From positions 1 to 64,000 of the forward strand of contig NZ_QVAI01000018.1 of assembly GCF_003427025.1 (NCBI RefSeq): a stretch of 64,000 nt of DNA. Direction: 5' to 3'. The notes under the pieces were generated by a model. The model did not search any database, had not been told where the DNA came from, and was given only the letters and a program-made list of their open reading frames with translations. This document shows, in pieces, positions 22,937 through 44,118 of this stretch (within the stretch, counting starts at the first letter, position 1; each line of letters opens with the position of its first letter). Source of the DNA: Jiangella endophytica. Lineage in GTDB: Bacteria; Actinomycetota; Actinomycetes; Jiangellales; Jiangellaceae. The position numbers were made by a program, and so were the translations under genes.

Positions 22937-23059
22937 CCGCGCCGCCTCCGCCCTCGCCGTCCACCGCCCGTGCCCGCGCCGGCCGCCCGCCGCCCGCGCC
23001 TCCCTGCGCGCCCGCGGCCGGTCGCCCGGCGCGCCTGCGCCCGGCTGCCCGCGCCCAAA
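22937..23059. other. C-rich low-complexity spacer
   Basis: About 120 bases after glgB made of C-rich, short-period sequence (CCGCCTCCGCCCTCGCC, CGCCCGCCGCCCGCGCC), with strong strand asymmetry. No gene. It forms the left flank of the inverted-repeat element, whose right flank is G-rich. Confidence 0.6.
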
Positions 23060-23130
23060 GTTGATCTTGGAGTTGTTCGGACCTTGCGGGCGATTTGCCC
23101 GATTGATGGCCGAAGAACTCCAAGATCAAC
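23060..23130. repeat. 71-bp inverted-repeat element, copy A
   Basis: Arms of 21 bases (GTTGATCTTGGAGTTGTTCG at the left, its near complement at the right) enclose a centre with a small GGGC-GATTT-GCCC hairpin. The arms differ by one base. The reverse complement matches copy B (44434-44504) at 59 of 71 positions. It lies between glgB and the convergent S8 peptidase gene and could act as a terminator, but its repetition suggests a dispersed element. Confidence 0.85.
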
Positions 23131-28925: not shown

Positions 28926-28934
28926 CGACCTGAC

Positions 28935-28983
28935 ACCGGCGGGGAGTCGTCATCCCCTGCGGAGGTGACGACTCCCCGCCGGT
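28935..28983 (+). terminator. Strong hairpin terminator after M14 peptidase gene
   Basis: A perfect 18-bp stem (arms 28935-28952 and 28966-28983, core GGCGGGGAGTCGTC/GACGACTCCCCGCC) with a 13-base loop, 9 bases after the stop codon. No T tract. Confidence 0.85.
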
Positions 28984-28990
28984 ATCCTCG

Positions 28991-29075
28991 CTGCTTGCCC
29001 ACGGTTCGGTACCCGCCCGTGTGGTCGCGACCTGCCCGAGCCCAGCCTGCTTGCCCACGGTTCGGTACCCGCCCG
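28991..29075. repeat. 29-bp direct repeat, two copies
   Basis: CTGCTTGCCCACGGTTCGGT plus ACCCGCCCG occurs identically at 28991-29019 and 29047-29075 (56-base period). A degenerate inverted match to its end (CGGGCGGGCACCGA) follows near 29097. The rest of 28984-29257 shows no gene on either strand. Only two units, so not a CRISPR array. Confidence 0.75.
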
Positions 29076-29257
29076 GCTGGGAGGGCACCCACCCTACGGG
29101 CGGGCACCGACAGCACCGGCTGCGCCGCGGTGTACGGGTGCGACGGCCGGGCGAACAGGTCCTTCGTCCCCGCTCGCCCGACCCCGGCCGGCCCCTCAGC
29201 TCGACAGCCGCCCCGCCGGCCCGTGACCCGCCCGACCCCCGGCCGGCCGGCCGGGCC

Positions 29258-30019
29258 TCAGCCCGGCATTCGCCCCAGCACGACGGTCGATTCGTCGTCG
29301 TGGTGCTCGGTCGCCGTCAGGCCGGCCGCCGTGAGGGCGTCGACGGCGGCCGCGGCCTGGGCGGCGCTCATCTCCAGCAGCAGGACGCCGTCGTCGCTCA
29401 GCCAGTCCGGCGCGCCGACGGCGATGCGCCGCACCAACTCCAGTCCGTCGCCGCCGCCGTCGAGGGCGGTGAGTGGTTCGTGCTCGCGGGCCTCGGGCGG
29501 CATCAGCGCGATGGCCGCCGTGGGCACGTAGGGCGGGCTCGCCAGCAGCACGTCGACGCGGCCGCGCAGCCCGCTCGGCAGCGCGCCGTAGAGGTCGCCC
29601 TGGTGGACGCGGCCGGCCGGTTCGACGTTGCGGCGCGCGCACGCGACGGCCGCAGGGTCGACGTCGGCGGCGTGCAGTTCGACATCGCCGGCCCCGCGGA
29701 CGACGGCGAGCCCGAGCGCCCCTGTCCCGCAGCACAGGTCGACGACCACCGCGCCCGGGCGCACCCGCCGCCGCGCGAGGTCGACGAGCAGCTCGCTGCG
29801 GTGCCTGGGCACGAACACGCCCGGATCGACGGCGACGCGCAGCCCGGCGAACTCGGCCCAGCCCAGGACGTGCTCGAGCGGCTCCCCGGCGACTCGCCGC
29901 ACGACCATCGCCTCGGCCTCGGCCGGGGTGGCGGCGGTCTCGTCGATCAGCCGCGCCTCGTCCTCGGCGAACACACACCCCGCCGCCCGCAACCGCGCGA
30001 CGACTCGCTGGTCCAGCAC
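29258..30019 (-). CDS. PrmC-like putative protein-(glutamine-N5) methyltransferase
   Basis: A 253-aa class I methyltransferase close to the HemK/PrmC family. It has the N-terminal helical part (EAEAMVVRRVAGEPLEHVLGW), the bridging strand VDPGVFVPRHRSELLVD, the SAM site VVVDLCCGTGALGLAV, and SPPYVP (161-166), where PrmC has the substrate-glutamine NPPY motif. The Asn-to-Ser change at this motif is known in the actinobacterial subgroup annotated as putative N(5)-glutamine methyltransferases. It is therefore probably a paralogue with a different target, rather than the release-factor enzyme. It stands alone on the minus strand after the macrodomain remnant. Confidence 0.8.
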   Translation of the reverse strand: MLDQRVVARLRAAGCVFAEDEARLIDETAATPAEAEAMVVRRVAGEPLEHVLGWAEFAGLRVAVDPGVFVPRHRSELLVDLARRRVRPGAVVVDLCCGTGALGLAVVRGAGDVELHAADVDPAAVACARRNVEPAGRVHQGDLYGALPSGLRGRVDVLLASPPYVPTAAIALMPPEAREHEPLTALDGGGDGLELVRRIAVGAPDWLSDDGVLLLEMSAAQAAAAVDALTAAGLTATEHHDDESTVVLGRMPG

Positions 30020-30122
30020 ACCGCCACCCTAGATGAGTGAGTCCGAAGGATCTCTCGTGGTCGTGAGCGACGAAGGAGCGTTCACCGCGCTGGTCTGCCG
30101 GGTGTGGAAGCGGCGTGGCCTG

Positions 30123-30214
30123 CCTTGGCAAGGCCTGTCACCTCCTTGGCAAGGTCCACGGTCGCCCGAGCGTCCGGCTCATCCCGATGTGCGGGGCGAC
30201 GAGCCTTGCCAAGG
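30123..30214. repeat. Three copies of an 11-bp palindrome
   Basis: CCTTGGCAAGG at 30123-30133 and 30144-30154, and CCTTGCCAAGG at 30204-30214, the last inside the end of the macrodomain remnant. The central base differs in the third copy, so read on the other strand it is the same word. Confidence 0.7.
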
Positions 30215-30478
30215 TGGCCGAGTCCGGACCTTGCCGCCCCACGACCGACCATCGGGCTCGTTCACGATGTAGCGCGGACCATCGCTCGCGCCGGTGGGCC
30301 ACACGTGTCTGCGGCCGGGGCGCAACTCACCCGCCCGAGCCGCCTCCGCGTAGGCCTCGACCATCGCCGGGTGGGCCGCCTTGAACTGAGCGGCCCTGCC
30401 CTCGCCCATGACGCCGCGGATGTTCACCGCGTCGACCAGCGCGTCGGCGTCGGCGGCCAGCAGGTCGCCGCGCAGCAC
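30179..30478 (-). pseudogene. Truncated macrodomain (ADP-ribose binding) protein
   Basis: 99 residues that match the N-terminal half of a DarG/YmdB-like macrodomain: RGDLLAADADALVDAVNIRG, VMGEGRAAQFKAAHPAM, then RPGRRHVWPTGASDGPRYIV and WGGKVR. A full macrodomain is about 150-170 aa; here the match ends right after WGGKVR and the frame reads into unrelated sequence with a stop. The glycine-rich phosphate loop of the second half is missing and cannot be found in the ~160 bases left before the next gene. The GTG start is 25 bases after the CitE stop, so it is the last gene of the long operon. Probably a remnant, though a short functional product cannot be excluded. Confidence 0.7.
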
Positions 30479-30502
30479 CTGGATCCCCAGGGTCCAGGTG
30501 CG

Positions 30503-31381
30503 TCAGCGCGGTCCGACCACCTCGGCGGCCGCGGCGGCGGTGCGGTCGGCGAGGGCGAGCACCTTCTGGGCCTGCTCGACCATCGCGACGTCGATGAAGC
30601 GGCCGCCGGGGAGGACGGCGACGCCGGAGCCGGAGGCCGCCGCGGCTTCGACCGCGGCGACCACCTCGGCCGCGCGGGCGACCTCGTCCGGCGACGGGCG
30701 GAAGGCGGCCTCGATGACCGGCAGCTGCTTCGGGTGGATCGCGGCCCGGCCGACGAAGCCCAGTTCGCGGCCGCGCGCGCACGAGGCGGCGAGGCCGTCG
30801 GCGTCGGAGAGGTCGGTCCAGACGGCCATCGCCGGGGCCGGCAGCCCGGCCGCCCGTGCCGCCACCACCAGCCGCTGCCGGCACCACGCCAGCCCGGCGC
30901 CGGCCCCGTCGCCGGCCCCGTCGGTCGGCAACCCGAGGTCGGACGCGAGGTCCGCCTCGCCCAGCCCGATCGACGCCACGCCCAGGGCCGACGCGATCGC
31001 GTACGCCGCCTCGACCCCGGCCGCCGTCTCGAGCAGCGCGTGCACCGGACGGTCCCCCACCACCGAGCGCACCGCGGCGACGTCGGCAGGCGACGACACC
31101 TTCGGCACCCGCACGGACACCGACGGAGGCAGCCCGGCGACCAGCGCGAGGTCGTCCGCGCACCACGGCGTGCCGGGAGCGTTGACCCGCACCTGCACGT
31201 CCCGCGCCGGGTCGGCGGCCGGCACCACGGACAGCACGCCGGCCCGCGCCGACGACTTCGCCGACGGTGCCACCGCGTCCTCGAGGTCGAGGATCACGAC
31301 GTCGGCCGACGAGGCCAGCGCCTTTTCGGCGCGGTCGGGCCGGTCGGCGGGCACGTACAGCAGGGTCAGGACCAGGCTCAT
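30503..31381 (-). CDS. CitE-like HpcH/HpaI family CoA-ester lyase
   Basis: A 292-aa TIM-barrel lyase. Seen: N-terminal LLYVPADRPDRAEKAL, the Mg/substrate block VVILDLEDAVAP (D32, E34, D35), RVNAPGTPWCADDLA, RVPKVSSPADV, LLETAAGVEAAYAIA and the C-terminal GRAAIHPKQLPVIEAAF. Family members cleave or form C-C bonds of citryl-, malyl- or citramalyl-type CoA thioesters. Its ATG overlaps the stop of the CoA-transferase gene by 4 bases, so the two are coupled and probably act in series: the transferase makes the CoA ester and this enzyme splits it. The specific substrate cannot be read from sequence. Confidence 0.85.
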   Translation of the reverse strand: MSLVLTLLYVPADRPDRAEKALASSADVVILDLEDAVAPSAKSSARAGVLSVVPAADPARDVQVRVNAPGTPWCADDLALVAGLPPSVSVRVPKVSSPADVAAVRSVVGDRPVHALLETAAGVEAAYAIASALGVASIGLGEADLASDLGLPTDGAGDGAGAGLAWCRQRLVVAARAAGLPAPAMAVWTDLSDADGLAASCARGRELGFVGRAAIHPKQLPVIEAAFRPSPDEVARAAEVVAAVEAAAASGSGVAVLPGGRFIDVAMVEQAQKVLALADRTAAAAAEVVGPR

Positions 31382-32565
31382 ACGACTCCCTCGGAGCGAA
31401 GCGCCGCGATGTCATCCACCGCATAGCCGAGTTCGACCAGGACGTCGGACGTGTCGGCGCCGTGCGCCCGCCCGGCCCACCGCACCGCTCCCGGCGTCTC
31501 GGAGAGCCGGAACAGCACGTTCTGCATCGCGACCTCGCCGAGGTCGGCGTCCGGCACCCGCAGCACGGTCTCCAGCGCGGCCAGCTGCGGGTCCACGACC
31601 AGGTCCGACGCGTCGTAGACGGGCGCCACCGCGGCCTCGGCCCGCTCGAACTGCGCCACCACCTCGTCGCGGGTCCGCGCCGCGACCCAGGCCCCGACGG
31701 CGGCGTCGAGCTCGTCGACGTGCGCGGCCCGGCCGGAGCCGGTCGCGAACCACGGCTCGTCGACGACCTCGGGCCGGCCGACCAGCCGCATGACCCGTTC
31801 GGCGATGCTCTGCGAGCTGGTCGACACCGCGACCCAGCGGCCGTCGGAGGTGCGGTACGTGTTGCGCGGCGCGTTGTTCGCCGACCGGTTGCCGGTCCGC
31901 TGCTGCACCGTCGCGAGCTGGTCCCACCGGGTCAGCTGCGGCCCGAGCACGGACAGCATCGGCTCGATGATCGCGAGGTCGACGACCTGCCCTCGCCCGC
32001 TGGCGGCCCGGGACGACAGCGCGGCCGTGACCGCGAACGCCGTCGCCAGCGCCGTGATGCCGTCGGCCAGCCCGAACGGCGGGAGGGTCGGCGGGCCGTC
32101 CGGCTCACCGGTCATCGCGGCGAACCCGCTCATCGCCTCGGCCAGCGTGCCGAACCCGGGCCGCCGCCGGTACGGGCCGATCTGCCCGAAGCCGGTGACG
32201 CGCGCGAGGATCAGCCCCGGGTTCTCCTTCGACAGCTCGGGGTAGCCGAGGTTCCACCGCTCCAGCGTGTCCGGACGGAAGTTCTCGATGACGACGTCGG
32301 ACTCGCGCGCCAGCCGCCGGAACACCTCCTGGCCACGCTCGTGCGACAGGTCCAGCGTCATCGTCCGCTTGTTGCGGCCGAGCGTCTTCCACCACAGGTT
32401 CTGCCCGTCCTTCGCCGGCCCGTGCCCGCGGGACGGGTCCGGCCGGCGCGGGTGCTCGACCTTGACGACGTCGGCGCCCATGTCGCCGAGGTGCATCGCG
32501 GCGATCGGCCCGGCGAACAGCGTCGCGGCATCGACGACCCGCAGCCCGGTCAGCGGCCCGTTCAC
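31378..32565 (-). CDS. Family III CoA-transferase (CaiB/BaiF)
   Basis: A 395-aa enzyme that moves CoA between carboxylic acids. The start GPLTGLRVVDAATLFAGPIA and the CoA-binding ADVVKVEHPRRPDPSR are typical. The probable acyl-linked aspartate is D168 in PPFGLADGITALA. VVIENFRPDTLERW and NRSANNAPRNTYRTSDGRWV also match the family. GTG at 32565 overlaps the stop of the upstream gene (GTGA); a longer in-frame extension is non-coding. It sits between the barrel/FGE-like gene and the CitE-like gene in the ADP-ribosylglycohydrolase operon and likely activates an acid released in that pathway. Confidence 0.9.
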   Translation of the reverse strand: MNGPLTGLRVVDAATLFAGPIAAMHLGDMGADVVKVEHPRRPDPSRGHGPAKDGQNLWWKTLGRNKRTMTLDLSHERGQEVFRRLARESDVVIENFRPDTLERWNLGYPELSKENPGLILARVTGFGQIGPYRRRPGFGTLAEAMSGFAAMTGEPDGPPTLPPFGLADGITALATAFAVTAALSSRAASGRGQVVDLAIIEPMLSVLGPQLTRWDQLATVQQRTGNRSANNAPRNTYRTSDGRWVAVSTSSQSIAERVMRLVGRPEVVDEPWFATGSGRAAHVDELDAAVGAWVAARTRDEVVAQFERAEAAVAPVYDASDLVVDPQLAALETVLRVPDADLGEVAMQNVLFRLSETPGAVRWAGRAHGADTSDVLVELGYAVDDIAALRSEGVV

Positions 32566-34535
32566 GTCGTCACCCCCACGGCGCAGCGGAAGCCGACGGA
32601 CGGCGACCGGTCCAGCCCCGCGCCCATCAGCAGGTACTTCGCCGAGAAGCCGGGCGCGCGGCGGCCGCCGTCGAAGTACCAGTCCGACCCGCTGGGCACC
32701 CAGTCCGACCCGCCCTTGAGGACGACGAACCGGGTGCGGCCGTCGGCGTGCTCGCTTTCGGTCAGGTTCCAGACGGCGGGCGCGCCGCGCTCCAGCAGCC
32801 CGGCCTCGCCGGCGATCTGCCACTCGTCCTCGGCCGGCAGCCGCCACCCGGCCCACGCGGCGTACGCGCGGGCGTCGGCGAGGTCGACGTACGTGACCGG
32901 TTCGGCGCCGCGGCCCGCCGGTGGCACGCCGTCGCGCCAGTGCGCGAGGAACCGCTCCGGCCGAAGCGGCCGGTACCCGGTCGCGGCGCGGAACGCGGCG
33001 AACTCGTCGTTGCTGACCTCCGTGCGGCCGATCGCGAACGGCTCGACGGCGACGCGGCGGTGCGCGGTGCCGGCGGCATGCAGGCGCGGCGGCAGCGGCT
33101 TCCACTCGTCGACGTACGGCGCCTCGTCGTAGAGGCCGGTCTCGCGGACGCGGTACCGGACGACGAGGTCGTGCCGGCCGCCGTCCACCCGGACCAGACC
33201 GGGCGGCACCGCCGCGACCACCCGCGCGGGCGCCGGCACCCGCACCGCCGGCCGCCGCGGGAAGGTCGCGTCCGGATCGACGGCGACGGACCCGGGCGCG
33301 ACGTCGGCGGCCAGCACGGCCGCGACCCCGCCGGCGGGCAGCCGGCCGCCGATCACCGTCCGCCCGTCGTCGCGCTTCGTCACCGTCAGCGCCGCGCCGG
33401 TGGTCAGCTCGGTGAACGCTCCCGGCGCGACGTCTGTCACCAGCCAGGGACCGGACCACTCGGCGTCGCTCCGGTTCACCACGGTCCACAACGCGACGCC
33501 GTCGTGCACCCACCGCGACGCGTACACCGGCGCGCCGTCGCCCGGGTGATCGGCCAGCGGCGTCCAGTCCTCGCCCTGCAGCCAGTCGCGGTACTCGCGC
33601 TGCACACGGCGCATCGAGCGCAGCAGCGACCGGTCCCGGGCGCTCCAGCCCACCCAGACGCCGAACACCGTCTCCCACACCAGGATCCCGGAGCCGTTCA
33701 GCCAGGCCGACTGCAGCTCCTCCAGGTGGCTGTGGTTCCAGCGGCGCGTGTGGTGCAGCACGTGGCGACGCTCGAACCAGGTCGCTCGCAGCACGCCCGG
33801 CACGGGTGAGTCGGCGAACCACTGCGCCCACGACGTCGTGTGGTCGTGCACGCGGGCCAGCGGGAGCCGCGACTCGCCCTCCATCGACAGCCCCGGCCGC
33901 AGCGCGTCCAGCCCGGCGCGGACCTCGGCCGAGCCCTCCTTCGAGCTGTCCAGGAAGACGCCGTCGGCGCCGAGGCGGTCGACCAGATCAACAAGGACTC
34001 CGGCACCGGACATGTGCGGCCTCGACTGAGAAGCGTGTCTCGGCCGTTCCTCCCACGGGTAGTACGAGACGAACACCCGCACCCCCGCGGCCTGGAAGGC
34101 GGCGACGACGGACGGCAGCTCGGGCACGTCGAAGAAGGCGAACTGGTCGCGCTCGTCGATGCCCTCGTTCGGGTACGCGTGCCAGAGGACGACGCCGTCG
34201 AACCCGCCGAACTCCCGCGTGGCCGCGGTGAGGTAGCCGCCGACGTCGAACCGGCCGGTCGCGTGGTCGTAGAGCAGCTCGTCCCAGAGCCAGGTCAGCG
34301 CGACGACGAACCCGTCGGTGCGCTCGACGTCGTAGCGCGACCCGTCGTAGCCCACCCGGGCGCCGGTCCGCCAGCGGGTGAGCGCCGACCGCCACGCCGC
34401 CCAGTCCGCGGGGTCGTCCGGCGCGGCGAAGATCTTCGCCTCGTCCAGCACCGACAGGTCGGCGGACGGGGCCAGCGGCACCGTCGCGGGCCGGTCGATC
34501 GGGCGCGGGACGTACGGGTTCGGCTCGCCGCTCAC
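32562..34535 (-). CDS. Barrel protein fused to formylglycine-enzyme-like domain
   Basis: A 657-aa cytosolic protein with two parts. Residues ~1-300 look like a glycoside-hydrolase-type TIM barrel (GFDGVVLWHAYPNEGIDERD, VRVFVSYYPWEERPRH, RLGADGVFLDSSKEGS, LSMEGESRLPLARVH), followed by a beta domain. Residues ~485-655 match the FGE-sulfatase fold: FAIGRTEVSNDEFAAFRAAT, YVDLADARAYAAWAGWRLPAEDEW, FVVLKGGSDWVPSGSDWYFD and VGFRCAV. The copper-binding cysteine pair of true formylglycine-generating enzymes is absent at the expected place (DWVPSGSDW), so this domain probably binds or acts otherwise. GTG start overlaps the ribokinase stop. The GH family is not identified; putative carboxylates are the Asp in GVFLDSS and Glu in SMEGES. 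Confidence 0.7.
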   Translation of the reverse strand: MSGEPNPYVPRPIDRPATVPLAPSADLSVLDEAKIFAAPDDPADWAAWRSALTRWRTGARVGYDGSRYDVERTDGFVVALTWLWDELLYDHATGRFDVGGYLTAATREFGGFDGVVLWHAYPNEGIDERDQFAFFDVPELPSVVAAFQAAGVRVFVSYYPWEERPRHASQSRPHMSGAGVLVDLVDRLGADGVFLDSSKEGSAEVRAGLDALRPGLSMEGESRLPLARVHDHTTSWAQWFADSPVPGVLRATWFERRHVLHHTRRWNHSHLEELQSAWLNGSGILVWETVFGVWVGWSARDRSLLRSMRRVQREYRDWLQGEDWTPLADHPGDGAPVYASRWVHDGVALWTVVNRSDAEWSGPWLVTDVAPGAFTELTTGAALTVTKRDDGRTVIGGRLPAGGVAAVLAADVAPGSVAVDPDATFPRRPAVRVPAPARVVAAVPPGLVRVDGGRHDLVVRYRVRETGLYDEAPYVDEWKPLPPRLHAAGTAHRRVAVEPFAIGRTEVSNDEFAAFRAATGYRPLRPERFLAHWRDGVPPAGRGAEPVTYVDLADARAYAAWAGWRLPAEDEWQIAGEAGLLERGAPAVWNLTESEHADGRTRFVVLKGGSDWVPSGSDWYFDGGRRAPGFSAKYLLMGAGLDRSPSVGFRCAVGVTT

Positions 34536-35422
34536 GACGCCTCCGCCAGGAACGCGTCGATCTCGGCGCGGTCAGGCATCGACGACGACGCACCCGGCCG
34601 CCGCACCGACAGCGCGGCCGCCGCCGACGCACGTCGCAGCGCGTCGTCCCAGTGCAGCCCTTCGGCGAGACCGACGGCCAGCACTCCGGCGAAGGTGTCG
34701 CCGGCCGCCGTCGTGTCGACCGCCTCGACCGGGAACGCCGGCACCGCGGTCTCGTCGCCCGCCCGCAACCGCAGCGCGCCGCGCCCGCCGAGCGTGACGA
34801 CGACGTCGCCGCCGCCCGCGGCCAGCGACCGCGCGGCCTCGACCGGGTCCGCGACGCCGGCCAGCAGCGCCGCCTCGTGCTCGTTCGGCACCAGGACGTC
34901 CACCGCTGCCAGCAGCTCCGGCGGCAGCGGCACGGCCGGCGCCGGGGTCAGCACGACCCGCACGCCGCGCGACCTCGCGTAGAGCGCCGCCTCCGTGACC
35001 AGCGGCAACGGCAGCTCCAGCTGCAGCAATACGAGCTGCGCCGCGTCCAGGGCGGCCCTGTGCGCGTCGGTCAGTGCCGTCACCGTCGCGTTCGCGCCCG
35101 GCACCACGACGATCGAGTTGTCGCCGGTGGCGTCGACGGTGATGTGCGCGGTCCCGGTGGGCTGGTCGCTCACGGCCAGCCCGGACACGTCGATGCCGGC
35201 GCCGGCGAGCAGCGCCGTGACGCGCCGGCCGAAGTCGTCGTCGCCCACGGCGCCGAGGAACGCGACGTCGCCACCGGCCCGGGCCGCCGCGAGCGCCTGG
35301 TTGGCGCCCTTGCCACCGGGGACGGTGGTGAAGGTGCGGCCGGTGACGGTCTCGCCGCGGCCGGGCGCGCGGTCGACGGTGGCGACGAGGTCCATATTGG
35401 CGCTGCCGAGGACGGCGATCAT
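34532..35422 (-). CDS. rbsK: Ribokinase (PfkB family)
   Basis: A 296-aa sugar kinase. N-terminal VLGSANMDLVATVDRAPGRG and PGGKGANQALAAARAGG are the ribokinase substrate-binding block; C-terminal DTTAAGDTFAGVL holds the catalytic base D242 and anion hole. The NMD and GGKGANQA motifs favour ribokinase over fructokinase. It would phosphorylate ribose to ribose-5-phosphate in the cytosol. It is coupled by 4-base overlaps to an ADP-ribosylglycohydrolase upstream and the barrel/FGE-like gene downstream, which strongly suggests that ribose is a product of the hydrolases in this operon. Confidence 0.88.
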   Translation of the reverse strand: MIAVLGSANMDLVATVDRAPGRGETVTGRTFTTVPGGKGANQALAAARAGGDVAFLGAVGDDDFGRRVTALLAGAGIDVSGLAVSDQPTGTAHITVDATGDNSIVVVPGANATVTALTDAHRAALDAAQLVLLQLELPLPLVTEAALYARSRGVRVVLTPAPAVPLPPELLAAVDVLVPNEHEAALLAGVADPVEAARSLAAGGGDVVVTLGGRGALRLRAGDETAVPAFPVEAVDTTAAGDTFAGVLAVGLAEGLHWDDALRRASAAAALSVRRPGASSSMPDRAEIDAFLAEAS

Positions 35423-36765
35423 CGCAGTGCCTCCCCCGCGGCGATCGTCCGGGCGGCCAGCGCGTCGAAGCCGATGCCGTCGAACCCGGCCAGCGTGGTG
35501 CTCATGCGGTTGCGCAGCGGCGCGATCCACCGCTGCGGCAGCGCGGCGGCGCCGGTCAATGCGCCGACGATCGAGCCGACCGTGGCGCCGTTGGAGTCGG
35601 TGTCCCAGCCGCCGCTCACGACGGCGGTGATCGAGCGCTCGTAGTCACCGTCGCCGTGCACCAGCGCGGCCACGACCAGCGCGGCGTTGTTCAGGACGTG
35701 CACCCAGTGCAGGTGCCCGTAGCGGGCCTCGATCGCGTCGACGACGGCCTCCCAGCCCGGTTCCTTCGCGGCCGCTTCGCGGGCGAAGCGGACCGCCTCG
35801 GCGTAGCGCGACGACGCCGGCACGACCGACAGCCCGGCGTCCAGGACCTCGTCGACCGACGACGCGACCAGCGCCGCCGAGCACGCGGCGGCCGCGAACA
35901 GCTCGCCGTACACGCCGTTGCGGGTGTGGCTCAGGACGGCGTCTCGCCAGGCCAGCTCGGCCGCGCCCGCGCGGTCCCCGGGTCGCGTCCAGCCGAACAC
36001 GTCGCCGCGGATCTGCGCTCCGATCCAGTCGCGGAACGGGTTGCGCACGGTCGCGGTGGCCGGCGGCAGGTGGCCGAGCAGCAGGTTGCGGTAGGCGACC
36101 CGCTCGGCGGTGAACACCCGTCCGGCCGGCAGCGACGCCAGCCAGCTCTCCGCGACGTCGACCGTGGTGAAATCTGCGCCACGGGTCTCCAGCAGCGCGA
36201 GGTTCAGCATCGGGAAGTTGAGGTCGTCGTCCTCGGGCATGCCGTCGATGTTCTCGGCCAGGCTGGTCGTCGCGCTGCGCCGGTTCCACGGCCAGCGGGC
36301 CGCGACGTCGTCGGGCAGGCCGGCGGCGGTGAACCAGCCGGCCAGCGGCCAGCGGCCGGTCGCCTCCAGGATCTCCCGGATCCCGGCGCGCGAGATCTTC
36401 TCCACCGGCTTGCCGAGCAGGCAGCCGGCGGCGCGGCCCAGCCAGGCGCCGTGCACGCGGTCCGGCGACGGCGCCACGCCGCCGGGCTCGCCCGCCGGCC
36501 AGGCCGCCCGCAGCTCGTCCAGTGCGGTCGGCTCGGCCGCGTCGAACGGCGACGGCCGCGCGTCGATCTCGTCCAGCAGTTCGGCGGCCAGCGCCCGCAG
36601 CTCCGGCGGCGCCGCGACGTCGGACGCGCCCGACCGCACCGGCGCGTCGTCGCCGCCGGCCGCGGTCCATCGCGAGCGCAGGTCGGCGACGTCGACACCG
36701 TCCTCGGCGGCCTGGGCGAACGCGTGCCCGACCAGGTCCTCCGACTGGATCCAGGTCAGCCTCAT
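35419..36765 (-). CDS. ADP-ribosylglycohydrolase family protein 1 (long form)
   Basis: A 448-aa ARH/DraG-fold protein. About 105 residues precede the ARH domain (MRLTWIQSEDLVGHAF onward), unlike the other three copies. The domain starts GAWLGRAAGCLLGKPVEK. The first metal motif reads EDDD (GMPEDDDLNF, 178-181) in place of the usual TDDT. The second is intact, GGWDTDSNGATVGSIVGAL. ARH enzymes use two Mg ions to cleave O- or N-glycosidic bonds of ADP-ribosyl groups or related ribosides. It is the last of four tandem paralogues, with 4-base overlaps on both sides (ARH2 and ribokinase). The target is unknown; a free nucleoside-like substrate seems more likely than a protein. Confidence 0.85.
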   Translation of the reverse strand: MRLTWIQSEDLVGHAFAQAAEDGVDVADLRSRWTAAGGDDAPVRSGASDVAAPPELRALAAELLDEIDARPSPFDAAEPTALDELRAAWPAGEPGGVAPSPDRVHGAWLGRAAGCLLGKPVEKISRAGIREILEATGRWPLAGWFTAAGLPDDVAARWPWNRRSATTSLAENIDGMPEDDDLNFPMLNLALLETRGADFTTVDVAESWLASLPAGRVFTAERVAYRNLLLGHLPPATATVRNPFRDWIGAQIRGDVFGWTRPGDRAGAAELAWRDAVLSHTRNGVYGELFAAAACSAALVASSVDEVLDAGLSVVPASSRYAEAVRFAREAAAKEPGWEAVVDAIEARYGHLHWVHVLNNAALVVAALVHGDGDYERSITAVVSGGWDTDSNGATVGSIVGALTGAAALPQRWIAPLRNRMSTTLAGFDGIGFDALAARTIAAGEALR

Positions 36766-37925
36766 GCCCCCGCCTCTCCCATGAGTCCGCCGAAAGCCTG
36801 GTCCACCGCCTGCCGGCGGGCCTGGTCGGCCGCCCGCACCCGCGCCGTCACCGCCGCCAGCCGCTCCCCCGGCCCTGCGAGGTCCACCTTGCTGGCCGCC
36901 GCGACCGCCGTCACCAGGTCGGCCGGCACCGCCGCGCGGCCGCCGAGCGCCCCGGCGACGGCCCCGGCCATCGAGGCGATCGAGTCGGAGTCGCGGCCGT
37001 AGTTGACGCCGCCGATCACGGCGTCGCGCCAGTCGCCGCCGGCGATGGCCAGGAAGCCCAGCGCGACCGGCAGCTCCTCGATGGTGTGCACACGGCTCGG
37101 CCGCCGGGCGCCGAGGCCCTGGTTGCGGTAGTCCTCGCCGACGGTGTCGTACGGCGCGACGGCGGCGCGCAGCTTGCCGGACTCGACCGCCTCGGTCCAG
37201 TGCCCGATCGAGGCCGCGGTGTCGAGCACCGCCTCGATGCCCGCCCTCGTCCCGTCCTTGGCCAGCCGCACCGCCACGGCCAGCACATCGTCGACCGTCG
37301 CGCCGGGCGCCGCGGCCGCGGCCACACAGGCGGCCATGACGCCGGCGGCCTCGCGTCCGTAGGACGACTGGTGCGCGCCGGCGACGTCGACCGCCTCGGC
37401 GTAGGCGGTCTCCGGGTCCGTGGCGTTGACGATGCCGACCGGCGCGATGTACATCGCCGCGCCACAGTTCACCGCGTTGCCGACGCCGGCCTCGCGCGGG
37501 TCGGCGTGCCCCCAGTGCAGCCGCAGCGCCATGTACTTCTCCGCGAGGAAGACCCGCTGCAACGGCAGTGCCTCGGCCTCCAGCTCGGGGATCCAGACCT
37601 TGCGGCCGATCATCAGCGGCACCAGCCGCTCGGCGACGTCGTACGCCGTCAGGTGGGCGCCGGCCTGCTCGTACACGTCGACCACGAGGTGCGTCATCAG
37701 GGTGTCGTCGGTGACGTTGCCGTCGCCCTTGTGGTACGGCGCGATGGGCCGCGCGGTGCGCCAGTCCTCGTAGTACGGCGGCACGATGCCCTCGACCCAG
37801 CCGCCCCACCGGTCCCGGATCTGCTGTGGCGACCAGCCCTCCGTCGCACCACCGAGCGCGTCGCCGACGGCGGCTCCCGTCAGGCATCCGACCGCGGTGT
37901 CGATGAGTGCGTCACTGGTCAACAC
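36762..37925 (-). CDS. ADP-ribosylglycohydrolase family protein 2
   Basis: A 387-aa ARH/DraG-fold protein with both metal-binding motifs: TDDT at 72-75 (GDGNVTDDTLMTHLVVDVY) and GRDSDSIASMAGAVAGALGG near the C-terminus. The opening IDTAVGCLTGAAVGDALGG is typical. The motif set of a catalytically competent family member is present. I choose the GTG at 37925 (GGAAAGGAAACCA upstream), overlapping the ARH3 stop by 14 bases; a TTG codon follows it directly and could also serve. It overlaps ARH1 by ATGA. The HWGHADPREAGVGNAVNCGA block is specific to this copy and may shape substrate choice. Confidence 0.88.
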   Translation of the reverse strand: MLTSDALIDTAVGCLTGAAVGDALGGATEGWSPQQIRDRWGGWVEGIVPPYYEDWRTARPIAPYHKGDGNVTDDTLMTHLVVDVYEQAGAHLTAYDVAERLVPLMIGRKVWIPELEAEALPLQRVFLAEKYMALRLHWGHADPREAGVGNAVNCGAAMYIAPVGIVNATDPETAYAEAVDVAGAHQSSYGREAAGVMAACVAAAAAPGATVDDVLAVAVRLAKDGTRAGIEAVLDTAASIGHWTEAVESGKLRAAVAPYDTVGEDYRNQGLGARRPSRVHTIEELPVALGFLAIAGGDWRDAVIGGVNYGRDSDSIASMAGAVAGALGGRAAVPADLVTAVAAASKVDLAGPGERLAAVTARVRAADQARRQAVDQAFGGLMGEAGA

Positions 37926-39018
37926 TGGTTTCCTTTCCCTTGTGGGAGCCGCCGCCGGTGACCTCGCGGTCGGCCGCGGCGAGCGCCCTTTCCTCGATGG
38001 AACCTGCCAGCTCGACCAGGTCGAGGCCGGCCAGTTCGGCCGCGCAGCAGCCGGCGAGTCGCCGGCACCGCTCGGCCCACGTCGTGGGCAGCGCGCTCGA
38101 CCCGTGAGCGGCACCGGTGAGCGCGCCCGTCAACGCGGGTGCGCTGTCGGCCAGCGCGGGCAGGCAGGCCGCGGCCGTGACGGCGGCGATCGGCCGCTCC
38201 CCGGCCCGCTCGGCCGCGTGCGCCAACGCGACGGCCACCGGCAGCGTCTGCGCGGCGGCGACGCCGTAGCTGTAGACGTGGCCGGCCGGTTCGTCCAGCA
38301 GGGGGACCGCCTCGGCCGCGCTGCCCACGTCGGCCGTCACCGCCAGCGCCCGCTCGGCGGACGCCGCCAGCAGCCCGTCCGCCGGCAGCCCGGCGGCGGC
38401 CGCGGCCCATGCGGCGGCCAGCGGCTCACCGCGGACCAGCCGCGCGATCGTCTCGGCTACCGCCCGGGCCGCGGCCAGGCCGTCGCCGGCGTTGGTGACC
38501 TCGGCGTCCCAGCCGGCCAGCGTGGCGGCCGTCTCCGGGCCGTCGGCGACGAGGCCGATCGCGACCGCGCGGACCGCGGCGGCGTCGTCGAAGTGGTGCG
38601 GGTTGTCGTGCCCGGTGACGGGCGGGTCGAGATCACGGCGCAGCGCGTCGGCCGCGGCGGCGACACTGATCCGGCCGCGCGGCAGCGCGCCGCCGACGGC
38701 CACGGCCCGCCAGTGCGCGTGCACGTCGTCGCGGCTCAAGGCGGGCGCGGCCGCGCCCAGCCAGCTCAGCGTCCACGCCGCCCACTCCGCGTCGTCGCCC
38801 GGGCCCAGCCGCAGCGGCGCCGTCGGCTGGTTCAGCGCGAACGGCACCGGCAACGTCGTCACCTGCTCGTTCTCGGCGAACGCGTCGAGCTCGCGGTGCA
38901 GGCGCCGGGTCCACGGCGGCAGCAGCCGAGCACGGTGCCGGACGGCGGGCCAGCCCGCGGCGTCGCCGATGGCCAGCCCGAGCAGCGCCCCGGCGGTGCG
39001 GTCCTGCCGTTCGCTCAC
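37912..39018 (-). CDS. ADP-ribosylglycohydrolase family protein 3 (metal site incomplete)
   Basis: A 368-aa ARH-fold protein: opening TAGALLGLAIGDAAGWP, first metal motif GDDAE (74-78, LGPGDDAEWAAWTLSWLG). The usual second motif (D-x-D-T/S) near the C-terminus is replaced: the matching stretch reads ALADSAPALTGALTGAAHG, with no aspartate pair. It might therefore be weakly active, specialised, or a partner of the neighbouring ARH proteins. GTG start at 39018 overlaps the ARH4 stop. The frame continues upstream but only as a shadow of ARH4. C-terminus ends basic-acidic and hydrophilic (GGGSHKGKETSVDQ). Confidence 0.82.
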   Translation of the reverse strand: MSERQDRTAGALLGLAIGDAAGWPAVRHRARLLPPWTRRLHRELDAFAENEQVTTLPVPFALNQPTAPLRLGPGDDAEWAAWTLSWLGAAAPALSRDDVHAHWRAVAVGGALPRGRISVAAAADALRRDLDPPVTGHDNPHHFDDAAAVRAVAIGLVADGPETAATLAGWDAEVTNAGDGLAAARAVAETIARLVRGEPLAAAWAAAAAGLPADGLLAASAERALAVTADVGSAAEAVPLLDEPAGHVYSYGVAAAQTLPVAVALAHAAERAGERPIAAVTAAACLPALADSAPALTGALTGAAHGSSALPTTWAERCRRLAGCCAAELAGLDLVELAGSIEERALAAADREVTGGGSHKGKETSVDQ

Positions 39019-39971
39019 GAGTCCGCCTCCAGGTGGTCGGCCAGCCGGTCGGCGAGGTCCAGCGGGTGCAGCCCCGCGACCACCTCGCCCAGGCAGCGGC
39101 CGGTGACCGGCCCGATCTGTCGCCGCCAGTCCGCCGGCACGCATCCGAGGCCCCCGTGCGCCCCGGCCAGCGCGCCGGCGATGGCGGCGGTGGTGTCGGC
39201 GTCGCGGCCCATGGCGACGGCGCCGGTCACCGCGCCGGTGAACTCGCCGTCCGCCGCCAGGAACGCGCCGAACGCCAGCGCGACCGCCTCCGGCGCCAGG
39301 TCCGTCCACGGATAGGACCGGACGACGACGGCGTCCAGCACTGCGGGCACGTCGCCCGCGTGGACGACGCCGGCCCGCAGCGAGCGCGCCGTCCACGAGT
39401 CGGCCGGGACGGCGGCGAGGGCGGCGGCCGCGATCTCCTGCGGCATCGCCGTCCCCGTCATCGCGACGGCGACCGCGGCGGCGACGGCGACACCGGCGTG
39501 CACGCCCTCGCCGTCGTGGCTGACCGCGCCGTCGACGGCCGCCAGCCGGGCCGCCGTCGCCGGGTCGCCCGCCGCGTACACGCCGTGCACCGCGGCCCGC
39601 ATGGCGAGGCCGTCGCTCCACGAGTGCAGGTGCCGCCCACTGGCCGGCGGCCGCAGCCCGGCCCGCAGGTTCTCGATGGTGCCGAGCTCACTGAACCCTG
39701 CGCCGGGGAACCCGCCCTCGCGGCCGGTCAGGTGCCGGATCCATGCGTCGGCGACGTCGTCGCTGGTCAGCTCGGCACCGTGCTCGAGCAGCAGCAACGC
39801 GCTGAACGCCGCGTACTCGGTGTCGTCGGTCCCCGACGGCCGGTCGTTCAGGAAACCGGTGACCGTGCCCCAGCGGGCGGCGATCTCCTCGGCCGTCAGG
39901 TTCTCCGCGGGGGCGCCCATGGCGTCACCGATGGCGAGCCCGAGCAGGCACCCCCGCGCGCGGTCCCTCAT
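39015..39971 (-). CDS. ADP-ribosylglycohydrolase family protein 4
   Basis: A 318-aa, compact ARH/DraG enzyme with both metal motifs: TDDT at 48-51 (RPSGTDDTEYAAFSALL) and AMGRDADTTAAIAGALAGAHGG at the C-terminal side. The opening ARGCLLGLAIGDAMGAPAEN is classic. GGAGGA lies just upstream of the ATG at 39971. It is the first of the four paralogues, 38 bases after the substrate-binding protein gene, and its stop overlaps the ARH3 start by four bases (GTGA). It best resembles the standard enzymes of this family, so is the most likely active hydrolase. Confidence 0.9.
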   Translation of the reverse strand: MRDRARGCLLGLAIGDAMGAPAENLTAEEIAARWGTVTGFLNDRPSGTDDTEYAAFSALLLLEHGAELTSDDVADAWIRHLTGREGGFPGAGFSELGTIENLRAGLRPPASGRHLHSWSDGLAMRAAVHGVYAAGDPATAARLAAVDGAVSHDGEGVHAGVAVAAAVAVAMTGTAMPQEIAAAALAAVPADSWTARSLRAGVVHAGDVPAVLDAVVVRSYPWTDLAPEAVALAFGAFLAADGEFTGAVTGAVAMGRDADTTAAIAGALAGAHGGLGCVPADWRRQIGPVTGRCLGEVVAGLHPLDLADRLADHLEADS

Positions 39972-40009
39972 CGACTCCTCCTCCGCCCCCGTTCGGATCA
40001 TGCGGGCCG

Positions 40010-41302
40010 TCAGCGGTTGTAGCGTTCGAGGATCTCGTTGCCGTCCTCGGTCAGCCGGGTGCCGAGCTCGTCCAGCGAGATCGCGTTCGCGAAGAACTCC
40101 TCGATCGACGGGTTCGCGACCTTGTTCTTCCACTCCTCGTAGCCGCGGACCCGCTGGAACGGCGCCTGCTCGAGGAAGGTCCCGGAGGCGGCCGCGACGG
40201 GCCAGTCCGGCGTCTCGGTGAGCACCGGGTCCTCGGCCGCGGCGGAGCTCGCCGGAATCATCCAGTCGCCCTTGGCCAGCAGCGCCTGGTTCTCGGGGTT
40301 CAGCATGTACTCGAGGAAGGCCATCGCCTCCTCGGGGTGCTCGGACTCGGCCGCGACCGAGACCGTCTGCGGAGCTGCCGCCTGCGCCTGCGAGTCGCCC
40401 GCCAGCGCCGGGATGGTCACCCACTCGAAGCCCTCGGGGGCCTGGTCGATGATCTGCTGGCGGAACCAGATGCCCTTGGGGAGCATCGCGTACTGGCCGG
40501 CGAAGAAGCCCGGCAGCGGGTCGGACCCACCCATGCCGATGGCGTCGGTGGCGGCGCTCTTGTCGACGTAGAGCTGGTCGTAGATGCGCTGGAACGCCTC
40601 CTTCTCGGGGTCGCCGAAGATCGCCGAGCTGGCGCCGTCGGACTCCTCGAAGAACCCGCCGCCGAAGTTCAGGGCGAGGTTGAGCATCCGGTTGGCCGGG
40701 TCCTTCAGCGTCCACGCCACCCCGAAGGTGTCGGCGTCGGTGAGCTGCTTGGAGACCTCGGCGAACTCGTCCCAGCTCCAGGGGTCGTCCGGCGCGGGCA
40801 CCTCGACGCCCGCCGCGTCGAGCAGCGCCTTGTTGGCGAAGATCACCTGCGCGTCCAGCAGGAACGGCACCGCGTAGACGGCGTCGTCGAAGGTGACCGC
40901 CTCCCAGGCGCCGTCGAGGATGTCGTCGGTCATCGCCTCCGGCACGAGGTCGGTGATGTCGAGGATCCAGCCGCGGTCGGCGAAGTCCTGCAGGTACGAC
41001 GACTCGTAGTGCACGAGATCCGGCGCCGTGCCGCCCTCGAACGCCGTCACCAGCTGATCCTGCACCGACGCCCAGTCGCCCTGCAGGTACTCGACCTGGA
41101 TGTCGGGGTTGTCGGCGTTCCACTGCTCGATGATCTGCTGGTTCGCGGCGATCGACTCGGGCTGGAACGCCAGACTCTGGAACGTCAGCGTCACCGGGCC
41201 GTCGTCGCCGCCCGTTCCGGCGCCGTCACCGGAGCCGCAACCGGCCAGCACGAGGCCGGCGCTGACGACGGCGGCGGACACGATCGTTGCTGCTCTGCGC
41301 AC
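40010..41302 (-). CDS. Sugar-type ABC transporter substrate-binding lipoprotein
   Basis: A 430-aa extracytoplasmic solute-binding protein (family 1). Start VRRAATIVSAAVVSAGLVLAGC gives a lipoprotein signal with lipidated Cys22, then a Gly/Asp linker. The mature part begins VTLTFQSLAFQPESIAANQQ, with FEGGTAPDLVHYESSYLQDFA and DDPWSWDEFAEVSKQLTDAD, the usual pattern of carbohydrate binders. I use the GTG at 41302 because AGGAGGGATC sits in front of it; an ATG twelve codons upstream has a weak RBS. With the two permeases it forms an importer whose ATPase must be shared (MsiK-like) since none is encoded here. Confidence 0.92.
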   Translation of the reverse strand: MRRAATIVSAAVVSAGLVLAGCGSGDGAGTGGDDGPVTLTFQSLAFQPESIAANQQIIEQWNADNPDIQVEYLQGDWASVQDQLVTAFEGGTAPDLVHYESSYLQDFADRGWILDITDLVPEAMTDDILDGAWEAVTFDDAVYAVPFLLDAQVIFANKALLDAAGVEVPAPDDPWSWDEFAEVSKQLTDADTFGVAWTLKDPANRMLNLALNFGGGFFEESDGASSAIFGDPEKEAFQRIYDQLYVDKSAATDAIGMGGSDPLPGFFAGQYAMLPKGIWFRQQIIDQAPEGFEWVTIPALAGDSQAQAAAPQTVSVAAESEHPEEAMAFLEYMLNPENQALLAKGDWMIPASSAAAEDPVLTETPDWPVAAASGTFLEQAPFQRVRGYEEWKNKVANPSIEEFFANAISLDELGTRLTEDGNEILERYNR

Positions 41303-41339
41303 GATCCCTCCTGGGGTGATGTCGGTGGTTCTGGTCATG

Positions 41340-42176
41340 TCAGGACTTCACCGCGCCGCCGAGCATGCCCCCGACGAGACGGCGTTGGATGATGGCGAAG
41401 AAGACGAGGCTCGGGATGGTGGCGACGAGTGCCGCGGCCGCCAGCGGGCCCAGCCGGGCCACGCCCTCGGCCCCGATGAACTTCACCAGCGTCAGCGAGA
41501 TGGTCTGCAGCTCCGGCGTGCGGAGCAGGACCAGGGCGAAGAGGAACTCGTTCCACGCCGAGACGAACGCGAACAGGGCCGCCGCGACCACGCCCGGGAC
41601 GAGCAGCGGCGCCACGATGTCCTTGAGCGTGCGGAGCTTGCCGGCGCCGTCCATCGCCGCGGCCTCCTCCAGCTCGACCGGGATGCCGACGACGTAGCTG
41701 CGCAGCATCCACAGCGCGAACGGCATGCTCCAGACGACGTAGACGATGATCAGCCCGAGCTGTGTGTCGTAGAGGCCGGCGTCGCGCAGCAGCAGGAACA
41801 GCGGGATGATCACGAGGATGAACGGAAACATCTGGCTCAGCAGCACCCAGAGCGCCGTCATCCGGCTCACCACCGAGCGGTAGCGCGCCATCACGTAGGC
41901 CGCCGGGATCGACAGCAGCACCGTCACCAGGGCCGAGGTGCCGGCGATGACCAGCGTGTTGAGCAGCGCCCGCGCCAGCGGCTGCTGCTCGAACGCGAGC
42001 CGGAAGTTGTCCAGCGTCGGGTCGGCCGGGATGATCGTCGGGTCGATCAGCGCCATCTCCTGCGGCGGCTTGAACGCCGTCGAGATCAGCCAGAGCAGCG
42101 GGAAGGCCAGGAACACCAGGTAGGCGACCAGGGCCAGGTACTTCGCCGGCGTCGCCAGCGTGCGGAATCCGCGCAT
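41340..42176 (-). CDS. Carbohydrate ABC transporter permease (MalG-like)
   Basis: A 278-aa inner-membrane protein with about six membrane spans, starting YLALVAYLVFLAFPLLWLI. The ATPase-contact loop reads VELEEAAAMDGAGKLRTL (EAA motif), and the order of segments fits MalG-type permeases (family CUT1). It pairs with the MalF-like permease two bases upstream and the binding protein 37 bases downstream. Start ATG at 42176 (MRGFRTLATPAKY). Substrate is inferred from the operon to be a riboside-like molecule, not from the sequence of the permease itself. Confidence 0.92.
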   Translation of the reverse strand: MRGFRTLATPAKYLALVAYLVFLAFPLLWLISTAFKPPQEMALIDPTIIPADPTLDNFRLAFEQQPLARALLNTLVIAGTSALVTVLLSIPAAYVMARYRSVVSRMTALWVLLSQMFPFILVIIPLFLLLRDAGLYDTQLGLIIVYVVWSMPFALWMLRSYVVGIPVELEEAAAMDGAGKLRTLKDIVAPLLVPGVVAAALFAFVSAWNEFLFALVLLRTPELQTISLTLVKFIGAEGVARLGPLAAAALVATIPSLVFFAIIQRRLVGGMLGGAVKS

Positions 42177-42178
42177 GG

Positions 42179-43117
42179 TCAGTCCTCCTCCCGGTAGCGG
42201 CGTCGCAGGTAGAACACGACGAACACGGCGATCACCAGCACCATGGCGTTGCCCAGGGCGGCCGCGTAGCCGTAGTTGCCGTAGCGGAACGCCTCCTCGT
42301 ACGCGAAGAGCATCGGCAGCCGCGTCGATCCGCCCGGCCCGCCCTCGGTGAGCACGTACACGAGGCTGAAGGAGTTGAAGTTCCAGATGAAGTCCAGCGT
42401 GGTCATCGCCGTCACGATGGGTCGCAGCGCCGGCCAGGTCACGTTGCGGAAGCGCTGCCACGGCCCCGCGCCGTCGACGGCGGCCGCCTCCTTGAGCTCC
42501 TCGGACACGCTCTGCAGGCCGGCCAGCAGCACCACCGTCGTCTGCGGCATGCCCGACCACACGCCGACGATGATCACGGCGGGCAGCGCCAGCGACAGCG
42601 AGCTGAGCCACTCGATGTTGGAGTCGATGATGCCGAGGTCCTTGAGGACGCTGTTCAGGATGCCGGCGTTGGGGTGGTAGACCAGCCGCCACATGATGCC
42701 GATGACGACCGGCGGCATCGCCCACGGCACCAGGGCCAGTGTGCGCGCCAGCCAGCGCAGCCGCAGCTTCTGGTTCAGCAGCAGCGCGAGGCCGAGGCTG
42801 GCGAAGAACTGCAGGATCGTGACCCCGAACGCCCAGATCAGCCCGATGCGGAACGAGTCCCAGAAGTACGAGTCGCCGAGCAGCTGGCTGTAGTTCTCGA
42901 AGCCGGTGAACGTCGTCTCCGAGTTGCGCCCGGCCTGCGCGTCGGTGAACCCGAGGTAGATGCCGCGCAGCAGCGGATACAGGCTGAACAGCACCACCGG
43001 GATCAGCGCGGGGACGGCCAGCATCAGGCCGTCGCGGTCCAGGCCGAGGAACGACCGTCGCTGACCCTGCGGGCCCGGTGGGGTCGGTCGCCGGCGGGTG
43101 GCCACGGTCGTGGTCAT
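42179..43117 (-). CDS. Carbohydrate ABC transporter permease (MalF-like)
   Basis: A 312-aa membrane protein with a basic N-terminus, then LMLAVPALIPVVLFSLYPLLRG and six spans in all. It has the EAA loop SEELKEAAAVDGAGPWQRF. It forms the second half of the permease with the gene two bases downstream. The start ATG at 43117 overlaps the stop of the LacI gene (ATGA), which ties the regulator and transporter into one transcript. A long upstream in-frame extension is a shadow of lacI. Confidence 0.92.
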   Translation of the reverse strand: MTTTVATRRRPTPPGPQGQRRSFLGLDRDGLMLAVPALIPVVLFSLYPLLRGIYLGFTDAQAGRNSETTFTGFENYSQLLGDSYFWDSFRIGLIWAFGVTILQFFASLGLALLLNQKLRLRWLARTLALVPWAMPPVVIGIMWRLVYHPNAGILNSVLKDLGIIDSNIEWLSSLSLALPAVIIVGVWSGMPQTTVVLLAGLQSVSEELKEAAAVDGAGPWQRFRNVTWPALRPIVTAMTTLDFIWNFNSFSLVYVLTEGGPGGSTRLPMLFAYEEAFRYGNYGYAAALGNAMVLVIAVFVVFYLRRRYREED

Positions 43118-44118
43118 CGGCTGCTCTCCCTGACGTTCAGCGACGGCGGGACGGTCACGCGCTCCGGCGGCGCGTCGTCGCCGTCGAGCCGGCGCAGCAG
43201 CAGCTCCGCGGCGATGCGGCCGCGGTCGGCCGAGCCGAGCGAGACGCTGGACAGCGGCGGGAAGCTGGTGGCCGCGAGCGGGGTGTCGTCCATGCCGACC
43301 ACCCGCACGTCGCCGGGGACGTCGCGGCCCAGGTCGCGCAGCGCGTGCAGGACACCCATGGCGATGAGGTCGTTGGCGCCCAGCACCGCGTCGACGTCCG
43401 GATGTCCGGTCAGCAGTTCGCGCGCCGCCCGGCGGCCGGCGTCGAACTGGAAGTCGGTGAACCGCACGAGATCGTCGTCCTCGGGAAGACCTGCCGCGGC
43501 GAGCCCGCTGCGGAAGCCGTCGTAGCGGGCCCGGCCGGGGACGGTGTCCAGCGGGCCGTCGATGAACGCGATGCGGCGGGCGCCGGCCTCGGCGAGGTGC
43601 TCGACCGCGAGCCGCGCACCGACGCGGGAGTCGGCCCGCACGTTGTCGACCGGGACGTCGTCGGGCAGCAGGCCGATGACCACGACCGGGACGGCGGTCT
43701 GCCGCAGCGCCTCGACGTGCCGGTCGGTGACCCGCAGCGGGCACAGGATCAGCCCGTCGACGTAGTTCTGGCTGAGGCTGGCCAGCACGCCGAGCTCGTC
43801 CTCGACGTCGGCGCCGGTGCTGTGCAGCAGCAGCCGGTAGCCCTCGTCGCGCAGCGTCGGCTGGATGCGGCGGACCATCTCCAGGTAGGCGGCGTTGCCG
43901 ATGTCCTCCATGGCGAACGCGATCTGCCCGGTGTGCCGCGTCTTCAGCGACTGCGCGACGACGCTCGGGACGTAGCCGACCTCACGGACGGCGGCGTTGA
44001 CCCGGGCGACCATGTCGGCGTTGGAGGTGTTGCCGTTGAGCGCGCGCGACACCGAGGAGATCGAGACCCCGGCGACCCTGGCGACCTCGTGGATCGTCGG
44101 CCGGCGGCGCTGCGTCAC
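43114..44118 (-). CDS. LacI family transcriptional regulator
   Basis: A 334-aa repressor: N-terminal helix-turn-helix TIHEVARVAGVSISSVSRAL with the hinge helix (YVPSVVAQSLKTR), then a periplasmic-binding-protein-like core (IAFAMEDIGNAAYLEMV, DGLILCPLRV, RIAFIDGPLDTVPGRARYDGF, VLGANDLIAMGVLHAL). It probably senses the sugar or riboside imported by this operon. Two LacI-type palindromes lie 31-42 and 66-77 bases before its start, which points to autorepression of the whole 13-gene operon. A third such palindrome stands before the divergent esterase gene. The first gene of the operon, it overlaps the permease by 4 bases. Confidence 0.93.
   Translation of the reverse strand: MTQRRRPTIHEVARVAGVSISSVSRALNGNTSNADMVARVNAAVREVGYVPSVVAQSLKTRHTGQIAFAMEDIGNAAYLEMVRRIQPTLRDEGYRLLLHSTGADVEDELGVLASLSQNYVDGLILCPLRVTDRHVEALRQTAVPVVVIGLLPDDVPVDNVRADSRVGARLAVEHLAEAGARRIAFIDGPLDTVPGRARYDGFRSGLAAAGLPEDDDLVRFTDFQFDAGRRAARELLTGHPDVDAVLGANDLIAMGVLHALRDLGRDVPGDVRVVGMDDTPLAATSFPPLSSVSLGSADRGRIAAELLLRRLDGDDAPPERVTVPPSLNVRESSR

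Follow-up and report, generated by a model that had tools for sequence, protein, structure and literature searches.

In the window (the whole 64,000-nucleotide stretch of Jiangella DNA that was analysed), a reverse-strand open frame at 30179-30478 carries a macrodomain at its start, which ends about half way. The frame lies between an hpcH/citE-like gene and a HemK/PrmC-like methyltransferase gene (Table 1), with hpcH, not darT, standing directly upstream. The GTG start of the methyltransferase gene is preceded by CTAGGG at 30027-30032, and the right end of a dispersed repeat abuts this hexamer. By eye, most congeners keep a TAGGGT-like sequence within a few bases upstream of the methyltransferase start (30027-30032 on the reverse strand in the window), which resembles a leaderless promoter. 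On the other side of the frame, 31378-44118 on the reverse strand contains an operon with a LacI-type regulator, two ABC permeases, a solute-binding protein, a PfkB kinase, an FGE-sulfatase-domain protein, a CoA-transferase III and an HpcH lyase, together with four ADP-ribosylglycohydrolase matches (39015-39953, 37912-38985, 36762-38000 and 35419-36768), and it looks like a system for uptake and breakdown of a ribosyl compound.

Table 1. Features at and around the macrodomain stump, in window coordinates.
Feature	Position	Strand	Remarks
HemK/PrmC-like methyltransferase gene (name inferred)	29258..30019	-	directly downstream of stump; Pfam MTS E 1.8e-10
MITE-like dispersed repeat copy, 233 bp	30033..30265	-	where the 3' part of darG is expected; imperfect inverted ends
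Tail of called frame, codons 72-99 and stop	30179..30265	-	probably repeat-encoded, not macrodomain
Native darG remnant	30266..30490	-	75 codons, N-terminal half of DarG macrodomain; NF048014 E 2.9e-21, profile 1-73 of 338
hpcH/citE-like aldolase-lyase	30503..31381	-	directly upstream of stump; Pfam HpcH_HpaI E 6.4e-34
caiB, sumf (FGE-sulfatase domain), pfkB and ADP-ribosylglycohydrolase genes	31378..39953	-	Pfam; conserved context, outside the relic

The half macrodomain that the first-pass annotation had read in this frame is real. The called frame matches Pfam Macro over profile positions 1-72 of 118 with an E of 5.9e-5, while the NCBIfam DarG profile NF048014 gives 9.3e-24, so that DarG is favoured over a general macrodomain; the PADLOC DarG profile gives 3.4e-24. 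The match to a DarG-type macrodomain is far beyond chance. Taken over 30224-30490 on the reverse strand, the match to NF048014 has an E of 2.3e-24 and 86.3 bits on profile positions 1-85 of 338 only, and it is because just a quarter of the profile is covered that the score lies below the whole-protein cut-off of 250 bits. When the same stretch was compared with solved structures by phmmer, 5m3i (E 4.9e-18) and 5m31 (E 4.5e-15) were the sole distinct sequences at E ≤0.01, the next match having an E of 0.018; excerpts of PMC5179494 give these entries as the DarG macrodomains of M. tuberculosis and T. aquaticus, respectively. The stump thus shares with these DarG (DarG2) proteins the N-terminal macrodomain, its best match by both profile and structure sequence, and differs from them in that about three quarters of the protein is missing, the positions of Lys80 and Lys29 as well as the start codon are changed, and no darT was found. 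DarG acts in DarTG2 systems as a DNA ADP-ribosyl glycohydrolase. DarTG2 is the macrodomain type among the two DarTG classes, as stated in a part of PMC11543638.

Homology to darG reaches 30490, upstream of the called GTG start (30476-30478), and in an alignment of the window, the congener G004 and Phytoactinopolyspora limicola it is the CTG at 30488-30490 that faces the start ATG of G004. The 75 native codons contain no stops and no frameshifts. Nor was a frameshift seen that could account for the missing half, which is simply absent; the repeat separates the stump from the methyltransferase gene. A tblastn search with the full P. limicola DarG matched the loci of the window and of G004 in macrodomain pieces only, and the C-terminal domain was not found in either.

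The repeat belongs to a family well represented in the organism's own genome. A 204-base query (30033-30236) gave at least 16 matches at no fewer than 14 places there, the window included (a lower bound, 40 of 98 candidates having been scored), and it matches in 8 of the 12 genus genomes. The window copy was aligned with 13 other regions of its own genome, and over stretches of at least 80 bases none of them exceeds about 86% identity to it. With up to 3 mismatches allowed, the left-end 21-mer (30236-30256), which falls inside the supposed macrodomain, occurs at 10 places in the own genome compared with 0 for the reversed control, and of the nine places other than the window six run on into the repeat body, one does so partly and two do not (by eye). 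In the 11 other genomes this 21-mer is at chance level (7 places vs. 9 for the reversed control), and the left end is therefore established for the own genome only. The right-end 26-mer was found at three places in the own genome and one in G004 (control 0). The palindrome CCTTGCCAAGG lies inside the repeat at 30123-30133 on the reverse strand and again at 30144-30154 and 30204-30214, making three occurrences in the window where 0.01 are expected. An Rfam scan of 29900-30600 returned no family at gathering score, and a strong fold of the repeat is not convincing (z of −1.96, with 3 of 200 shuffles folding equally well). Miniature inverted-repeat elements are a general kind of element in bacteria. 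Like them, the window repeat is short and dispersed, has imperfect inverted ends (12 of 17 bases match between the two ends of the window copy, by eye) and has several copies beside CTAG (by eye), although its copies vary in length.

The native part of darG probably ends at 30266. Across 24 relatives, 22 positions before the break and 8 after it vary little or not at all; the window has retained 16 of the former and 3 of the latter. The 14 residues past the proposed break lift the match to DarG from 76.1 bits to 86.3 bits, and full-length repeat copies begin aligning at about 30229; given this gain of 10 bits, the break could lie anywhere from 30265 down to about 30229. With the repeat extending over about 30033-30265, the resemblance of EPDGRSWGGKVR to a DarG motif is probably an accident of repeat DNA. 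The first-pass annotation had followed the match as far as WGGKVR, about half way through the domain, and the half-way ending stands, but the sequence there is probably not macrodomain, with repeat DNA from about 30265, and the homology begins upstream of the GTG.

An error of sequencing is unlikely to lie behind the break because the break falls on a member of a repeat family and because the gene has also decayed, separately, at this junction in a second species. That the gene might be whole in the organism and broken only by an assembly or sequencing fault seems very improbable: the assembly is a draft of 89 contigs and the break does fall at a repeat, but no other copy of this repeat in the own genome is more than about 86% identical to this one, so that a collapse of reads is not to be expected, and the gene is also broken in G004 (an assembly of 4 contigs) and missing from the ten other congeners.

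The junction between hpcH and the methyltransferase gene provides the comparison with relatives. The two genes adjoin in the window and in all 11 congeners, and macrodomain pieces were found between them in 2 of the 12 genus genomes, the window's own (G000) and G004, both broken. In G004 a frame of 79 amino acids (C3:715756-715995) is made up of three pieces of the DarG macrodomain, including its end, separated by two internal gaps, neither of which disturbs the reading frame (chance expectation 1 in 9); the frame stops just after the macrodomain, and everything beyond is absent. No macrodomain was found at the junction of the ten other congeners, where the matches to hpcH and the methyltransferase gene are −3 to 130 bases apart. 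An intact darG was not found at the junction or elsewhere in the 12 genus genomes; G008 has one weak, distant match elsewhere in its genome (E 0.004). The decay suspected in the first-pass annotation is thus borne out by the repeat at the break and the differently broken stump in G004, while the intact gene it had expected in relatives is present at the junction in none of the 11 congeners. The check it had proposed at this position returned no full macrodomain: no trace of the gene was detected in ten congeners, and there is a broken stump in G004.

By eye, the last codons of hpcH (VVGPR and stop) and the following spacer in G000 resemble those of G004 and are unlike those of the ten other congeners, which argues for one origin of the darG pieces. 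Taking these observations together, the half macrodomain of the window is very probably a pseudogene stump of a toxin-less DarG-type antitoxin, with a repeat at the site of the C-terminal half, that was broken separately in G004. Against this reading stand the absence of stops and frameshifts from the native codons, the in-frame gaps of G004 and the retention of Asn22, a residue that matters in T. aquaticus DarG. Even so, what remains is most likely an unremarkable relic from a known antitoxin family, cut by a repeat, and looks like the outcome of ordinary gene decay.

The same comparison bears on the idea that the macrodomain serves the ADP-ribosylglycohydrolase operon as a functional accessory. 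Its location is suggestive in that it is on the same strand and directly behind hpcH, but the order arh1, arh2, arh3, pfkB, caiB, hpcH, methyltransferase gene is kept in 11 of 11 congeners (in G002 the contig begins inside arh3, and the fourth glycohydrolase at 39015-39953 was left out of the comparison), while pieces of the macrodomain occur in 2 of 12 genomes, broken in both. We regard a working accessory as highly unlikely on these grounds. The first-pass annotation had taken the macrodomain as support for an ADP-ribose chemistry of the locus, and this support falls away; a false lead is thereby removed, in that the macrodomain is no evidence that the operon handles ADP-ribose via macrodomains. 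The sumf gene of the operon had no match in G006 and G007.

The residues of the stump itself are informative as to function. In alignment with 5m31, N19, T20, K29, T79 and K80 of T. aquaticus DarG (structure chain numbering minus 10) are matched in the window by D, A, E, D and G. All 24 relatives have the same residue in each of the columns of Asn19, Lys29, Thr79 and Lys80, and 23 of the 24 do in that of Thr20. According to a part of PMC5179494, the K80A variant of T. aquaticus DarG is inactive, while N22A, K29E and G119E are markedly inhibitory. The window keeps Asn22, has Glu in place of Lys29, and has Gly at the position of the catalytic Lys80, which probably lies inside the repeat. The second ADP-ribose loop (G117-G121) is absent from the window stump; it is present in the stump of G004, with Leu replacing an Asn found in 23 of 24 relatives. 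Before the break of the window six near-invariant residues are changed, three of them common to G004 and three in the stretch that G004 is without, and the three common to G004 predate the break for that reason. With these residues, the stump can probably hardly hydrolyse or hold ADP-ribose and would have no macrodomain role.

A short form of the macrodomain could still be made and used, e.g., as a DarT-binding or RNA-binding peptide, and the frame is indeed open without a frameshift and has a low dN/dS on the codons common to G004. Against this, the second ADP-ribose loop and the residues at Lys80 and Lys29 have been altered or lost, CTG stands at the aligned start and the C-terminus is repeat, G004 retains different pieces, and no darT was found in the genus genomes. 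This makes a functional short form scarcely credible.

A search of the 12 genus genomes with one query, the DarT of P. limicola, did not turn up the DarT-like partner that the first-pass annotation had advised looking for; a very divergent DarT could escape such a search. P. limicola, of the same family Jiangellaceae (G017; L002/L063), has darT before a full darG, with products of 215 and 362 amino acids (NF048013 E 8.9e-69 and NF048014 E 2.6e-132). Its DarG is 51% identical to the window stump over the length of the stump, and its DarTG is complete whereas the window holds a stump. Among the loci of named relatives, a DarT match lies upstream of darG in 21 of 25 (E ≤0.01); the four without such a match (L060, L074, L075 and L081) were viewed only by frame listing. 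Two loci come from other Actinobacteria with apparently broken darG: in L074 (Actinomyces israelii) it looks frameshifted, and in L065 it looks cut after the macrodomain, the DarT match there being in two pieces; decay of darG is therefore not unique to Jiangella.

The original extent of the gene admits a second reading, in which the ancestor was a single-domain macrodomain and not a two-domain DarG. The model for this is S. coelicolor SCO6735, described in excerpts of PMC9411070 as a single macrodomain in Actinobacteria, ALC1-like and related to DarG, that acts against DarT and DarT products. In agreement with such an ancestor, neither stump has a trace of the DarG C-terminal domain, and the frame of G004 ends just after the macrodomain. 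The stop of G004 lies at the junction with the sequence preceding the methyltransferase gene, however, and therefore says nothing on the original end of the gene. Sequence similarity also points the other way: the piece of G004 matches 5m31 with an E of 4.7e-16 and 5e3b, which we take to be SCO6735, with an E of 1.6e-4, and the window piece has no match to 5e3b at all up to E 10, against the values given above for the DarG entries. SCO6735 is intact and active with Gln85 in place of Lys80 (excerpts of PMC9411070), and both stumps are nearer to DarG. We therefore consider a single-domain ancestor rather unlikely.

The history of the gene was approached through a tree of six operon proteins (2100 columns), which is a tree of the locus and not of the species since the six genes are linked. 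G004 groups with G010 (support 96) and G009 (support 100), apart from G000, with weak deep nodes (support 32-64). A sister relationship of G000 and G004 is rejected (AU p 0.0025), and placement of G000 with G004, G009 and G010 is rejected by the AU test (0.018) and not by the SH test (0.145). Over the 36 codons shared by the darG pieces of G000 and G004, dN/dS is 0.21 (bootstrap 0.06-0.56), with a pN of 0.095 and a pS of 0.36; the flanking hpcH and methyltransferase genes have pN values of 0.107 and 0.102 and pS values of 0.24 and 0.29, respectively. A divergence of darG like that of the flanking genes fits old vertical inheritance. As G000 and G004 are not sisters and dN/dS is 0.21, darG was probably inherited and under selection for some time before it broke in each lineage on its own. 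Going by the dN/dS count alone, the present fragments may also be under selection. For a source on mobile elements, the search of plasmids gave one match only, to a Calothrix plasmid at 44.8% identity, and that of phages none at 1e-5; both sources were rejected.

These values suggest a sequence of events in which the ancestor of at least G000 and G004 would have had darG, without darT, between hpcH and the methyltransferase gene. Purifying selection would have acted on darG during some of the time after the two lineages split, as the 36 shared codons indicate. In the lineage of the window the repeat would then have replaced the C-terminal half, with loss of darG from about codon 76 to CTAGGG; the arrangement can be read directly from the window, and the order of repeat insertion and deletion is our inference. 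The lineage of G004 would have decayed separately, with loss of two internal stretches and of all sequence past the macrodomain, and in the ten other congeners nothing of darG is detectable.

Why a DarG without its toxin should have been kept is a matter for a tentative proposal. It is possible, though rather doubtful, that an ancestor within the genus kept, by selection, a toxin-less DarG macrodomain behind the sugar-uptake and ADP-ribosylglycohydrolase operon as a stand-alone guard against foreign DarT or other DNA ADP-ribosylation, and that it was then lost repeatedly. Macrodomains of this class other than paired DarG can protect against DarT, as SCO6735 does, which makes a toxin-less ancestor plausible. 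For T. aquaticus, the DarG macrodomain by itself is reported to give protection from DarT (PMC5179494). Were the guard real, one could trace here how an antitoxin served alone before it decayed and left two different stumps. No paper that combines DarG with the term "orphan antitoxin" was found. The word "orphan" refers to NADARs in the excerpts of PMC11543638, a DarTG paper, and the term "orphan antitoxin" is used in the literature on other systems (title listing); the match for Jiangella and toxin-antitoxin systems concerns Clp unfoldases, by its title. The locus is a modest but clear case in which a toxin-less antitoxin gene has decayed in parallel and the boundary of a repeat mimics a continuing protein match.

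Other repeats were noticed as well. A different inverted repeat, with ends like GTTGATCTTGGAGT and ACTCCAAGATCAAC, fills the junction in six of the congeners, at L008, L009, L011, L012, L015 and L016 (by eye), and from the translations of open frames it seems to be present also in the window near 23000-23130 and 44400. At 28932-29080 the window has 34-base direct repeats that are 94% alike (28991-29024 and 29047-29080) and, beside them, a 26-base inverted repeat whose arms are 3 bases apart.
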